DNA of 51,334 nt, taken from contig CALFBP010000080.1 of the NCBI GenBank assembly GCA_937951625.1, positions 1 through 51,334 on the forward strand, in the 5' to 3' direction. Of the stretch, positions 3,280 through 6,920 are shown piece by piece; within the stretch, counting starts at the first letter, position 1; each line of letters starts with the position of its first letter. The position numbers and the translations under genes were made by a program. This DNA comes from an uncultured Thermoguttaceae bacterium (GTDB lineage: Bacteria > Planctomycetota > Planctomycetia > Pirellulales > Thermoguttaceae). The notes below the pieces were generated by a model. That model was not told where the DNA came from. It ran no database searches and saw only the letters and a list, made by a program, of their open reading frames with translations.

Positions 3280-3630
3280 ATGCAACCCGATGTAGCTCAA
3301 TGGATTCGTGTCAGCAAACGGCTTACCCAGGCAAGCGGTTTTCTGGAATTAGGATTGCCGGAGCAGGCACTGGCGGTGTTGAACAATCTCGGCCCAACCG
3401 GGCCGTTCGAAGCGCAAGTGGAGCTTCTTCGCGGCGAAGCCTACCGTCGGCAACAGAAGTTTCAGGAAGCCGCGGTGGCGTTCAGGGCCGCGGCCGAAAA
3501 GTCTCTTTCAACTCGCGACCGGCAGGCACTCATGCTGATGGCTGTCTGTTTTCAACAATCGAGCAAAGTTGTCGAGGCCCTGCGACGGCTTGCGCAGTCT
3601 CCAGATGCCTCTTCGCCGGAGGCCAAGTAA
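3280..3630 (+). CDS. Small TPR-repeat protein
   Basis: The 116-residue protein is made of helix pairs with TPR-like spacing: a segment around residues 16-31 (SGFLELGLPEQALAVL), one at 44-63 (LRGEAYRRQQKFQEAAVAFR) and a third incomplete pair ending in VVEALRRLAQ. It is probably a cytoplasmic scaffold or adaptor, since no signal peptide or membrane segment is present. The ribosome binding site AGGTGAG precedes ATG 3280. Control by a sigma-54-like promoter at 3146 suggests conditional expression, as for the nearby hsp20 genes. No specific function can be assigned from sequence. Confidence 0.75.
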   Translation: MQPDVAQWIRVSKRLTQASGFLELGLPEQALAVLNNLGPTGPFEAQVELLRGEAYRRQQKFQEAAVAFRAAAEKSLSTRDRQALMLMAVCFQQSSKVVEALRRLAQSPDASSPEAK

Positions 3631-3643
3631 AGGTTCAGCCTCG

Positions 3644-4840
3644 CTAACCAGCCTGCCAAGGTGTTCCCCAGACGAGTTCTCCGTCGGCGATGGTACAACG
3701 GATTTGCAAGCCCGGCGCGGATGACGTACTGCCCGCAGAGGGGAGATCGAACTGGATCAGATCGGCGGGGGCGCCTTTGACGATCACGCTTGGCGGCATG
3801 CCGAGCAGCGTGGCCGGATTGTGAATTGCCATCTGAAGGGCGGTAGCAAGATCCAATCCGGCAAATTGCATCACATTCCAAACGCCCACGTTTGCCGGAG
3901 CGGAGGCTCCTGCCATGAGTTCCCGTTGACCAGCGACGACCAATTTTCCGTCGGGGAGGATTTCCACGTCACAAAACGGGCTGGAGTATCGCCCGGGGGC
4001 TTGACCCGCTTGCCCCGACAGATCGCTTACGAGTATGCAGCGCTGGGGACTCTTGGCGCGGATAAAGACCTTGACCATATCAGGCAACAAGTGGTGGCCG
4101 TCCACGATCAAGCTGGCCCAAAGCCGATCGTCGGCCAATTGCGGCCAAAGGTAATTGCGAAACCGATGAAAGGTAGGATGGGAACCGTTGCCCAAGTGGG
4201 TGCTGAGCCGAGCCCCGGCGTCAACGGCCGCTCGGATTTGGTCTGCCGTGGCCGACGTGTGACCGATCGCAACGATCACGCCCGACGCGCACGCTTTTCG
4301 AATGAAGGCCTCAGAGCCCTCGAATTCCGGCGACATGGTAAGGATGCGGATGCGGCCCTTCGCGGCCTCTTGAAGGCGTTGAAATTCATCCCAATTTGGC
4401 GGACGACAATGTCGCTTGGGGTGAGCACCGCGGGCACCGTCCTCCCCAGTGATATACGGTCCCTCAAGATGGATTCCGGGCATGTGTCGGGACCAAGTCG
4501 GGGATCGATCGCAAAGGCCAGCAATCGTTGACAAAGCGTGGGCAAGAACGTCCACTCCCTCCGTAGTGACCGTAGGGCAGAAGCAAGTCACGCCAAACTG
4601 GTAAAGCGATTCAACAATGGCGGCGGTTTTTTCTGCCGTCAATTGAGCGGAGCTGAATTCCTGGCCACCGTAGCCGTTCAGTTGAATGTCGATCAGACCC
4701 GGACTGATCCACGGCCATCGGCCCAGATTAGGCTGAAGTTCGGGACTCGGTTCCACGGGCGTGATCTGCGTCACGCGCCCATTGACGATCTCAATGTGTG
4801 TCGGCTGCCCAGTATCGTAAAGACGGCCTGATAGTCTCAT
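3644..4840 (-). CDS. nagA: N-acetylglucosamine-6-phosphate deacetylase
   Basis: This 398-residue amidohydrolase removes acetate from GlcNAc-6-phosphate, giving glucosamine-6-phosphate for cell-wall recycling or amino-sugar use. Diagnostic segments are PGLIDIQLNGYGG near the N-terminus, the metal-ligand Glu in GIHLEGPYI, GHTSATADQI, STHLGNGSHP, DGHHL and the catalytic Asp region LVSDLSG. The start is set at ATG 4840 because GGAGG lies six bases upstream. The two-residue longer start MFM would overlap that site. It is divergent from the hsp20 cluster and stands alone, with no nagB beside it. The gene is convergent with, and ends 13 bases after, the TPR gene. Confidence 0.9.
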   Translation of the reverse strand: MRLSGRLYDTGQPTHIEIVNGRVTQITPVEPSPELQPNLGRWPWISPGLIDIQLNGYGGQEFSSAQLTAEKTAAIVESLYQFGVTCFCPTVTTEGVDVLAHALSTIAGLCDRSPTWSRHMPGIHLEGPYITGEDGARGAHPKRHCRPPNWDEFQRLQEAAKGRIRILTMSPEFEGSEAFIRKACASGVIVAIGHTSATADQIRAAVDAGARLSTHLGNGSHPTFHRFRNYLWPQLADDRLWASLIVDGHHLLPDMVKVFIRAKSPQRCILVSDLSGQAGQAPGRYSSPFCDVEILPDGKLVVAGQRELMAGASAPANVGVWNVMQFAGLDLATALQMAIHNPATLLGMPPSVIVKGAPADLIQFDLPSAGSTSSAPGLQIRCTIADGELVWGTPWQAG

Positions 4841-4900
4841 GAACATCCTCCAACCCCAATGTACTGAAAATGAACTGGGGACGGAAGTTCTCGCTAGTTT

Positions 4901-4915
4901 CTGCCAATCTGGCAG
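4901..4915. promoter_or_regulatory. Inverted repeat upstream of hsp20 promoter, possible activator site
   Basis: CTGCCA-ATC-TGGCAG is a perfect 6-bp dyad centred about 85-90 bases upstream of the sigma-54-like hsp20 promoter at 4991. Sigma-54 promoters need an upstream enhancer-bound AAA+ activator, and this dyad sits at a typical distance. It also lies about 65 bases upstream of nagA on the other strand, so it could act there instead. Assignment is inference. Confidence 0.4.
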
Positions 4916-4990
4916 CAAGGCCTCGTTCAAGTGGTCTGGGGATCGCAGTAAGTCTTTGTGGGAAGAAAGATAAGGACGACCACGAAAATT

Positions 4991-5006
4991 CGGCACGTGG
5001 TTTGCT
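4991..5006 (+). promoter_or_regulatory. Candidate sigma-54 (-24/-12) promoter of the hsp20 cluster
   Basis: CGGCACGTGGTTTGCT differs from the consensus TGGCACG-N4-TTGCW only at the first base. GG (4992-4993) and GC (5004-5005) are ten bases apart. The predicted start is near 5017, about 58 bases before the first hsp20 ATG at 5075. No CIRCE element was found here. Confidence 0.72.
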
Positions 5007-5074
5007 GCACAAGGGGATAGCTGTTCGGTGAGTTGTCAGGAACCTTCACGATCCCCACAAAGGAGGCTTGGCCC

Positions 5075-5518
5075 ATGGTTTTGCGCTACATGAATCCCTC
5101 GCATCCGGTGCAGCAGTTACGCCGGGAAATGGACCGATTGTGGTCTCAGGTGATGGGCGATCAGATTGAGCCGCCGTGGACCGGCCTGGTTCGCGGTCAG
5201 CCCGCGGTCAACGTCTGGGAGACCGAGGAGGCGCTTTTCGTGGAGCTGGAAACGCCGGGGCTGAAGAGCGATCAGTTGGACATCTCGGTCGCCGGCGATC
5301 AACTCTCGATCCGAGTTCATCGTCCAGAAGTGGAAGAACAGGGCGCGACGTACCATCGGCGCGAACGGCCGGTGGGCTCGTTCAGCCGGGTACTCCGCCT
5401 GCCGTCGCCCGTGGACGCCGACGCCGTAGAAGCCGAACTGCAAAACGGCGTGCTGTGCATCAAGTTGCCGAAGGCCAAGGAGGCCCGGCCGCGGAAGATT
5501 CAGGTCGTTGGCAAATAG
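5075..5518 (+). CDS. Hsp20/alpha-crystallin small heat-shock protein (first of three)
   Basis: The 147-residue protein is an ATP-independent holdase that binds unfolding proteins and forms cytoplasmic oligomers. The alpha-crystallin domain spans about residues 45-145, with AVNVWETEEALFVELETPG, DQLDISVAGDQLSI and the family strand NGVLCIKLPKAKEARPRKI at the C-terminus. AAAGGAGG nine bases before ATG 5075 decides the start, and an upstream in-frame TTG at 5033 is ignored. It is followed after 21 bases by a second hsp20 gene. The sigma-54-like promoter at 4991 is the most likely source of transcription. Confidence 0.93.
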   Translation: MVLRYMNPSHPVQQLRREMDRLWSQVMGDQIEPPWTGLVRGQPAVNVWETEEALFVELETPGLKSDQLDISVAGDQLSIRVHRPEVEEQGATYHRRERPVGSFSRVLRLPSPVDADAVEAELQNGVLCIKLPKAKEARPRKIQVVGK

Positions 5519-5539
5519 AACCTTGGAAAGGAGCTGGAC

Positions 5540-5935
5540 ATGGCAGACGATACCCAAGCCGTAAAAACCCCGGCCAGTGAGGTCGCGCCGGCTGAACACA
5601 CGCGATCCGGGACCTACTATCGTCCGAACGTCGACATCGTGGAGAAAGCCGACGAGTTGATCGTCCGGGCCGACGTGCCCGGGGCGACCGCCGACGGAAT
5701 CGACGTGAAGTTTGAAGATGGAACGCTGTCGATCCACGCGAAAGTCCCGCCGCGAAACCAGGATGTCGATTTTCTGGTGAGGGAGTATGGCGTGGGCGAT
5801 TTCTACCGCGAGTTCCGCGTCAACGAAACCGTGGACGTGGCCCGCATTTCGGCCGAACTCGCCGACGGAGTCCTCACCCTCCATTTGCCGAAAATCGAGG
5901 CGGCCAAACCACGGAAGATCCCGGTCAAAACCTAG
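5540..5935 (+). CDS. Hsp20/alpha-crystallin small heat-shock protein (second of three)
   Basis: This 131-residue Hsp20 has a short N-terminal arm and an alpha-crystallin domain (about residues 28-128) with YYRPNVDIVEKADELIVRAD, DGTLSIHAKVPP and the final GVLTLHLPKIEAAKPRKIPV. The AAGGAG ribosome site precedes ATG 5540. The short arm suggests it may form smaller oligomers or co-assemble with its neighbours, which is inference. The 22-base spacing from the first hsp20 gene makes co-transcription very likely. The gap to the third copy is longer and contains a strong hairpin. Confidence 0.92.
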   Translation: MADDTQAVKTPASEVAPAEHTRSGTYYRPNVDIVEKADELIVRADVPGATADGIDVKFEDGTLSIHAKVPPRNQDVDFLVREYGVGDFYREFRVNETVDVARISAELADGVLTLHLPKIEAAKPRKIPVKT

Positions 5936-5978
5936 GCGAAATGGTCCTGACCGGTTCCTTCTCGGGAAGTTACCTGGA

Positions 5979-6007
5979 CGGAGGCAACGGCCGTACCGTT
6001 GCCTCCG
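5979..6007 (+). terminator. Perfect 11-bp hairpin between second and third hsp20 genes
   Basis: CGGAGGCAACG (5979-5989) is perfectly complementary to CGTTGCCTCCG (5997-6007) around a seven-base loop. It lies 44 bases after the second hsp20 stop and about 56 bases before the third start. No T-tract follows, so it is either a Rho-independent-like partial terminator or an mRNA stabiliser/processing stem that sets different expression of the third gene. Confidence 0.55.
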
Positions 6008-6062
6008 ACCCAGCCCTGAGGCTTTGTTGCAGCACCTGAGCTGTTAAAAGGAGGTGTTTCCC

Positions 6063-6545
6063 ATGAGTTTGATCCCTTGGAGAAACAAATCGAAAGAGCC
6101 GGTCCGCGCCGACGTTTCACCGTTGGCGGCACTTCGCGCGGAGATCGACCGCCTGTTCGAAGCCGTGACGGGGGATGCTTTTGGGGCGTTGGATTGGGCC
6201 GTCAGTGGAAACCGGGGGTGGCTGCCGCCTGTCGACATCGCGGAAAGCGAGGACGAATTCACGGTCCGCGCTGAAATCCCGGGAATCGACCCGAAAGACT
6301 TGCAGGTCAACATTTCGGGCAACCAGCTCGTATTGGCGGGCGAGAAGAAAGAGTCGAGCGAAAGTAAGGCAAAGGACTTCTACCAGACCGAGTCCCGGTA
6401 CGGGGCCTTTCGCCGGTCCATCGCTTTGCCCGATTCCGTGGACCAAGAGAAAGTCGAGGCCGAGTATGTCAATGGCGTCTTGACTATCCGCTTGAAGAAG
6501 CTCCAGAGCGCCCCTCCGAAAAAGGTGGAAATCAAGGTCAAATAA
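6063..6545 (+). CDS. Hsp20/alpha-crystallin small heat-shock protein (third of three)
   Basis: The 160-residue Hsp20 has a longer N-terminal arm and an alpha-crystallin domain from about residue 55, with PPVDIAESEDEFTVRAEIPGI, QVNISGNQLVLAGEKK, the loop FYQTESRYGAFRRSIALP and the final strand NGVLTIRLKKLQ. AAAGGAGGTG, an almost complete anti-Shine-Dalgarno match, precedes ATG 6063 and sets the start nine bases inside the longest frame. It is closer to the classical HspC/IbpA-type length than the two copies before it. A hairpin separates it from them, so its expression could differ. Confidence 0.93.
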   Translation: MSLIPWRNKSKEPVRADVSPLAALRAEIDRLFEAVTGDAFGALDWAVSGNRGWLPPVDIAESEDEFTVRAEIPGIDPKDLQVNISGNQLVLAGEKKESSESKAKDFYQTESRYGAFRRSIALPDSVDQEKVEAEYVNGVLTIRLKKLQSAPPKKVEIKVK

Positions 6546-6920
6546 CGCGGCCCCAGGGTTGCGCTTCATCCATCGCAGCGCAGTGCGGGCCACGACTTCG
6601 GCCTTGCAGGTGCGAGGCCGAAAGCGTGGCCCCTTCTGGACTTATCGGAAATTTGGGCCGTCAATCGCTTTCGGCTGTGGAACAAACAGGGCTGCTCGGG
6701 TAGACTTAGCAAATCAGAGGCCTGTCCTAAAAGATCCATCGCCCTTCCGCAGCTCAGCGGTGGTTGGGGTATCGAGTGGGCGGTGTCAACCGCGAATTAC
6801 AGCAGCGGTGCCTGCTACGCTGATTTCCCCCGGGTTTCGGGTTGGACGGGCATGTAACGGTTCTGGGATAGTTCTCCATCGATCTCCTAGAGATCGTTTC
6901 GATAGTTGAGAAGGTCGATC
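6546..6920. other. Intergenic region before aroH
   Basis: The 375 bases between hsp20 and the chorismate mutase gene hold a 7-bp palindrome near the right end (6880-6896, separate entry). No clear promoter boxes, RNA gene or ORF with coding character was seen in the rest. Confidence 0.4.
6880..6896. promoter_or_regulatory. Perfect palindrome upstream of chorismate mutase gene
   Basis: CGATCTC-CTA-GAGATCG is a perfect 7-bp inverted repeat that ends 24 bases before the aroH-type start codon. It could be an operator or a leader stem close to the ribosome site. No regulator is indicated by the sequence. Confidence 0.4.

Follow-up and report, generated by a model that had tools for sequence, protein, structure and literature searches.

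Heat-shock genes of the core cytosolic chaperones are controlled in other bacteria by sigma-32 or by the HrcA repressor at CIRCE elements, the latter type of control being the rule for groEL and dnaK in many phyla. A sigma-54 promoter works differently, as it is silent without its activator and is opened by ATP hydrolysis. The closest described system is a predicted one: a 2025 study (PMC12316311) predicted enrichment of sigma-54 promoters on the GroEL, IbpA, GroES, GrpE, DnaJ and DnaK families in Planctomycetia (less in Phycisphaerae) and in Bacteroidota classes; its statement that GrpE and GroES are sigma-54-dependent in Bacteroides cites a cockroach-endosymbiont paper, so the experimental support for it is uncertain. 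In Escherichia coli a sigma-54 promoter is reported on the small heat-shock gene ibpB (Kuczynska-Wisnik et al. 2001, as cited in PMC4316790 and PMC4370416). How planctomycetes switch on their chaperones is not settled; in Rhodopirellula baltica, GroEL, DnaK, ClpB and Hsp20 are induced on heat while rpoH, rpoE and rpoN were not seen to be regulated (PMC2754498). The sigma-54 regulome of D. vulgaris (PMC4641369) lists envelope, nitrite and phage-shock stress, but no cytosolic chaperones were seen in it, and nothing on chaperone genes of the phyla considered here was seen in PMC3162934. Literature searches on sigma-54 or RpoN with small heat-shock genes, heat shock, chaperones, Planctomycetes, Pirellula or Bacteroides showed no paper on an activator or upstream site for chaperones, and a search for the dyad described below returned only unrelated zebrafish papers, these searches being confined to open-licence papers and not extending to a 2004 paper on Pirellula enhancer-binding proteins.

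The locus analyzed here lies in a 51,334-nucleotide stretch (the window) of an uncultured Thermoguttaceae bacterium (assembly GCA_937951625.1, contig CALFBP010000080.1), which is contig C80 of a 4.59 Mb, 105-contig genome (G000; below, G, C and L numbers denote genomes, contigs and loci read). A first-pass annotation had claimed that a small heat-shock gene cluster in it is apparently under sigma-54 control, with a promoter one base short of consensus and a perfect dyad at enhancer-like distance, that none of the more usual controls of hsp20 genes were seen, and that an activator-dependent heat or stress response would be a new regulatory route. Its observation is confirmed, as both sites are present in the sequence. 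The features of the region are as follows.

4901-4915 (no strand): upstream activating dyad CTGCCA-ATC-TGGCAG, the proposed enhancer-binding-protein site
4947-4974 (no strand): second, imperfect palindrome, possibly the site of a DNA-bending or co-regulating protein
4991-5006 (+): sigma-54 promoter with -24/-12 boxes CGGCACG-TGGT-TTGCT
5075-5518 (+): hsp20 gene 1 (147 aa), preceded by an AAGGAGG ribosome-binding site (Pfam PF00011, E 9.5e-22)
5540-5935 (+): hsp20 gene 2 (131 aa; PF00011, E 3.3e-18)
6063-6545 (+): hsp20 gene 3 (160 aa; PF00011, E 4.2e-24)
3644-4840 (-): divergent amidohydrolase gene, NagA-like by resemblance and not part of the conserved unit (Pfam Amidohydro_1, E 4.1e-8)

The dyad, CTGCCAATCTGGCAG, is a perfect 6-bp inverted repeat with a 3-bp centre that matches its consensus at 12 of 12 positions and starts 90 bp upstream of the -24 box. 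The promoter, CGGCACGTGGTTTGCT, matches TGGCACR-N4-TTGCW at 11 of 12 scored positions, the one departure being C for T before the GG; transcripts were not mapped. Conservation of the dyad upstream of hsp20 orthologues had been proposed as a check on the annotation, and its absence from close relatives as grounds for rejecting it. In a search of 60 genomes, own included, HSP20 was found in 50, and 60 upstream stretches were taken from listed clusters and single genes, one of them the own second hsp20 operon, in addition to the window; not every listed hit was taken. One stretch (L070) was dropped from the promoter count as it has only 116 bp upstream, leaving 60 (2 of the own genome, 58 of relatives). 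A sigma-54 site of 10 or more of 12 occurs in 49 of these on the sense strand, in 1 on the opposite strand and in a mean of 2.3 in shuffles; at 12 of 12, the values are 17, 0 and 0.02. In the 49 stretches with a site, the best dyad within 160 bp upstream scores 10 or more of 12 in 38, against 0.57% of shuffles, while the remaining 11 have no dyad above 9 of 12; counting L070, 12 of 61 stretches lack a site at the threshold. Of the 41 stretches with a dyad of 9 or more, 32 have it starting 84-105 bp upstream of the -24 box and 9 have it further off, at 110-159 bp. The six columns on either side of the dyad carry 0-0.16 bit, indicating that these are not simply recent copies; as the 41 stretches were picked for a dyad of 9 or more, the high values inside the dyad follow from the choice, and only the flanks and the shuffle test are informative. 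The dyad and promoter thus recur together across the family, the order and beyond, though not in every genome, and the interpretation offered by the annotation is supported, although its reading was too narrow: the control covers groEL, dnaK-clpB and groES as well as hsp20, and there is a second palindrome that it did not mention.

In the own genome the same arrangement precedes groEL on C32 (CTGCCAATTTGGCAC at -113, TGGCACGCAGCTTGCT; dyad 11 of 12, promoter 12 of 12), dnaK followed by a ClpB-like gene on C54 (GTGCCAAAACGGCAG at -112, CGGCACGGGCTTTGCT; 10 and 11) and a second hsp20 operon on C26 (TTGTCAATTTGGCAG at -144, TGGCATGCAATTTGCT; 10 and 11). By contrast, two tandem divergent Hsp70 homologues (G000:C24:8618-12155, open frames of 704 and 690 aa) have no such arrangement at 9 of 12 each in the stretches read. 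A looser compound pattern run on 147 relatives, own genome included, hits 71 genomes at 116 places, against 8 for the reversed control; of 30 of those loci read, 22 have GroEL (12), Hsp20 (7) or DnaK (3) downstream, one has a TPR gene and 7 were unclassified. This pattern gives four hits in the own genome, namely the window, one without a chaperone downstream (L152) and two that were not read. Across 294 genomes of the phylum, 83 have a hit and 211 do not, and the reversed control hits 19, so the pattern is variable or lost in many families. Upstream stretches of groEL were read in 30 loci from 15 relatives, mostly genomes without a strict hit; 8 of 30 have a promoter of 10 or more and a dyad of 9 or more, 8 of the 15 relatives having such a copy and 7 not, so not every groEL copy is in the regulon. 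In some genomes groEL carries a sigma-54 site with a drifted dyad (L370 CTGACAAAATGTCAG, from genome G017; L389; L391), such as CTGACA-AAA-TGTCAG, 85-120 bp upstream, which could reveal co-evolution with the helix of the activator, and in others nothing recognizable was found.

A stricter pattern run without any reference to genes on a collection of one genome for each of 84,980 species returned at least 117 loci and did not exhaust the collection. Within 1.2 kb downstream, a chaperone gene follows in 101 of these 117 (GroEL 46, DnaK 26, Hsp20 24, ClpB 4, GroES 1), with one TPR gene, 9 loci unclassified and 6 too short, whereas only 3 chaperone matches lie within 1.2 kb upstream on either strand. 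After removal of 4 loci shared with the first set and of near-identical spacers, 88 of 102 distinct loci have a chaperone downstream. Of the 80 loci with titles shown, most are Planctomycetota; a groEL hit (L196) is from Blastopirellula marina. The others include Bacteroidaceae (L214 and L228, DnaK; L229, Hsp20), another Bacteroidetes (L257, Hsp20), Poribacteria (L205, Hsp20; L213, DnaK; L270, ClpB), Calditrichaeota (L230, Hsp20) and Zixibacteria (L265, Hsp20). Unclassified loci with titles from Aquificaceae, a gammaproteobacterial endosymbiont, Acidobacteria and Desulfobacterales (L208, L219, L225, L271) look like background, and these phyla are not counted; L200 and L248 are unclassified too. 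A small TPR protein near the hsp20 operon (window 3280-3630, +) has look-alikes or homologues that follow the dyad and sigma-54 arrangement in other genomes (L187, L222/L144), so it may be a further regulon member, although in the window no such site precedes it.

An expectation-maximization motif search between dyad and promoter in 41 stretches found the second site, CGTAAGTC-N-TT-N7-AA-N-GACTT, an imperfect palindrome whose outer right end is completed as ACG by symmetry (consensus about CGTAAGTC-N-TT-N7-AA-N-GACTTACG), with a log-likelihood of 267.7 against 78-83 in six shuffles. As the spacer was free in the gene-blind scan, its loci could be scored for the site: of 117 loci, 29 score 14 or more of 20 against about 1 expected, and the gap between the arms is 7 in all 10 loci scoring 15 or more. 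Without the 4 training loci and near-duplicates, 20 of 102 reach this score against 0.84 expected from shuffles. Among the 25 best listed, 10 end 15-16 bp and 13 end 22-26 bp before the promoter, roughly one helical turn apart, but some of these are near-identical sequences. The window copy scores 14 of 20 with a gap of 6. The inner TT and AA steps are 9 bp apart, reminiscent of the kink spacing of IHF/HU proteins; a bending protein is, however, only a guess.

ALTERNATIVES. CIRCE and sigma-32 scores of 61 hsp20 upstream stretches do not exceed those of their shuffles, and in the four own operons they are only 9-10 of 18 and 8-9 of 12, respectively; the rpoH and hrcA genes themselves were not searched for. 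No Rfam family matches 4700-6600 at E up to 1, so no curated RNA thermometer was recognized, although uncurated thermometers are not excluded, and no sigma-70-like site was found in 4840-6800. The rpoN gene is present in the own genome (PF04552, E 6.6e-63, at G000:C37) and in the seven other genomes tested.

The own genome has 13 enhancer-binding proteins with E under 1e-60, and linkage does not indicate which of them acts here. In 20 stretches of up to 20 kb around hsp20 loci and 20 around other hits (mostly groEL or dnaK), only one enhancer-binding-protein gene was found, about 8.5 kb from dnaK in L190, and this is an FHA-group relative in the tree described below; a scan with a GAFTGA word, which would miss GAFTDA proteins, and a repeat with a profile gave the same single gene. 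The Bacteroidaceae genome G148, which has the arrangement on dnaK, has one strong enhancer-binding protein, without a receiver domain, with helix SERTLYRKIKEYGL and ending in SERTLYRKIKEYGLEET, although the genome may be incomplete. Among the 13 own proteins only that at G000:C61 has the ERTLYRK helix (IGERTLYRKIKEY), and it has receiver, sigma-54 AAA+ and Fis-type HTH domains (PF00072, PF00158 and PF02954, all above cut-off). The planctomycete genome G236, which holds the pattern, has only two strong enhancer-binding proteins, one of them with IGERTLFRKIKEY. In a tree of 82 rows, one of the two (L401) falls in a supported clade (99/94) of 16 planctomycete proteins of this type, one each from 16 genomes (G236, four other genomes outside the own class and 11 of the own family, including the own protein), and 12 of these 16 genomes hold the compound pattern; the other (L409) groups with proteins of one other family only. 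Genome G208, which has the pattern, is absent from the clade because its candidate locus (C55) was not included, and of G032, G089 and G106 only another protein was included. The four Bacteroidota proteins form another clade (100/99) that does not join the planctomycete one, so the shared helix may be convergent, and the Poribacteria protein L318 is unplaced. In Bacteroidota the receiver-less activator gene sits in a recurrent block with what look by eye like miaB, lptE-type, TPR and secG genes (L342, L343, L344, L345).

The GAFTGA loop gives a mixed picture. It reads GAFTDA in the own protein (L346, 20-1522, -) and in 7 of the 8 other ERTLYRK-tagged own-family proteins, and GAFTGA in L361 and in the five proteins from outside the own class; GAFTDA also occurs in several other planctomycete enhancer-binding proteins. 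The loop speaks neither clearly for nor against the candidate. A profile of the helix is found in 293 of 294 phylum genomes at E up to 1e-6, a threshold that does not separate orthologues from paralogues, the own genome having five matches. A 39-aa open frame at G000:C59:7813-7929 scores 87.5 bits to the HTH of the candidate and is perhaps an assembly overlap or a fragment of a second copy. Profile scores are higher where the strict pattern is found (median exponent 18.95 against 17.2 outside the own class, p 0.0076), but this is confounded by relatedness and counts only as weak support. A contrast of presence and absence of the pattern by genus was unusable, as four genomes without the strict pattern (G017, G020, G024, G103) also carry the candidate, and G017, with its drifted dyad on one groEL, keeps the activator (L437). 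A histidine kinase-like gene (by eye) is adjacent in two of five loci looked at (L351, L353) and not in L354, L357 or L361.

Taken together, the region is best explained, with a probability of about 0.8, as the control region of one member of a sigma-54-dependent chaperone regulon. In this view, RNA polymerase with sigma-54 binds the -24/-12 boxes as a closed complex, and a hexameric AAA+ enhancer-binding protein bound at the CTGCCA-N3-TGGCAG dyad about 90 bp upstream contacts it by DNA looping and opens it with ATP, switching on hsp20 and, in the same cell, the second hsp20 operon, groEL and dnaK-clpB; the intervening palindrome would possibly position or bend the loop. The most likely activator is the NtrC-type response regulator encoded at G000:C61. 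What the analysis itself shows is the sites, their conservation and the identity of the downstream genes, whereas binding, looping, the identity of the activator and induction by heat or protein damage are inferred, the last from no expression data and the activator from its distribution, tree position and helix without a binding assay. The lack of induction of rpoN by heat in R. baltica might appear to oppose this model, though activator control does not require it.

Other readings of the same sites were weighed. It is possible, though less likely, that the promoter and dyad control chaperones but that the activator is a different enhancer-binding protein and the signal is not heat, for example general stress, starvation or development. 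The number of enhancer-binding proteins in the own genome and the lack of linkage leave room for this, helices like ERTLYRK are common in the family, and receiver-domain activators usually answer kinases and not heat; however, among the proteins placed in the tree only one clade includes both G236 and the own family, and the co-regulated set is the core cytosolic chaperones. A repressor operator, with negative control of the regulon and sigma-54 serving as a separately activated promoter, is improbable. A perfect short palindrome is also typical of such operators and CIRCE-type control is widespread, but the predominant 84-105 bp distance is out of reach of simple occlusion and is where activator sites of sigma-54 systems usually lie, and sigma-54 promoters need an activator in any case. 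The idea that the dyad serves the divergent amidohydrolase gene, about 60 bp upstream of whose start codon it lies, is already contradicted: the gene has no match at E up to 1e-5 in 20 other hsp20 loci (19 of relatives, 1 own), several of which keep the dyad, while the same query finds the window itself, and chaperones follow the promoter far more often than they precede it in the gene-blind scan.

A broader reading is about as likely as not. In Planctomycetota an NtrC-type response regulator with sigma-54 would be the master switch of the cytosolic chaperones in place of sigma-32 or HrcA, and Bacteroidota and some other phyla would use the same cis-code, CTGCCA-N3-TGGCAG plus a -24/-12 promoter, read by an activator of a separate AAA+ lineage that carries the same recognition helix. 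Heat-shock control by an ATP-driven activator would then be a third general design beside alternative sigma factors and repressors, with a third conserved site between dyad and promoter. A common activator-type site on hsp20, groEL, dnaK-clpB and groES, and one candidate activator, turn the question of planctomycete chaperone control into a directly testable one, and the response would be mechanistically different and found in several phyla.

In comparison with the described systems, the promoter side of the finding is less new than the first-pass annotation supposed, given the 2025 prediction for Planctomycetia and Bacteroidota; however, no upstream site and no activator for chaperone genes was found in that study, and the phrase "upstream activat" does not occur in its main text. 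The candidate activator resembles NtrC-family two-component activators with a Fis-type HTH in its receiver, sigma-54 activator and HTH_8 domains and in the enhancer distance of the dyad, but differs in its target set, the cytosolic chaperones, and in the GAFTDA reading of most own-family proteins, and in Bacteroidota and Poribacteria the candidates scanned lack the receiver domain. The sigma-32 and HrcA/CIRCE systems control the same gene set in other bacteria, yet no signal of either above shuffle level accompanies the hsp20 stretches examined here. The E. coli ibpB promoter is likewise a sigma-54 promoter on a small heat-shock gene, but is an accessory promoter inside a sigma-32 operon, whereas here no other promoter type was recognized and the set reaches groEL, dnaK, clpB and groES.
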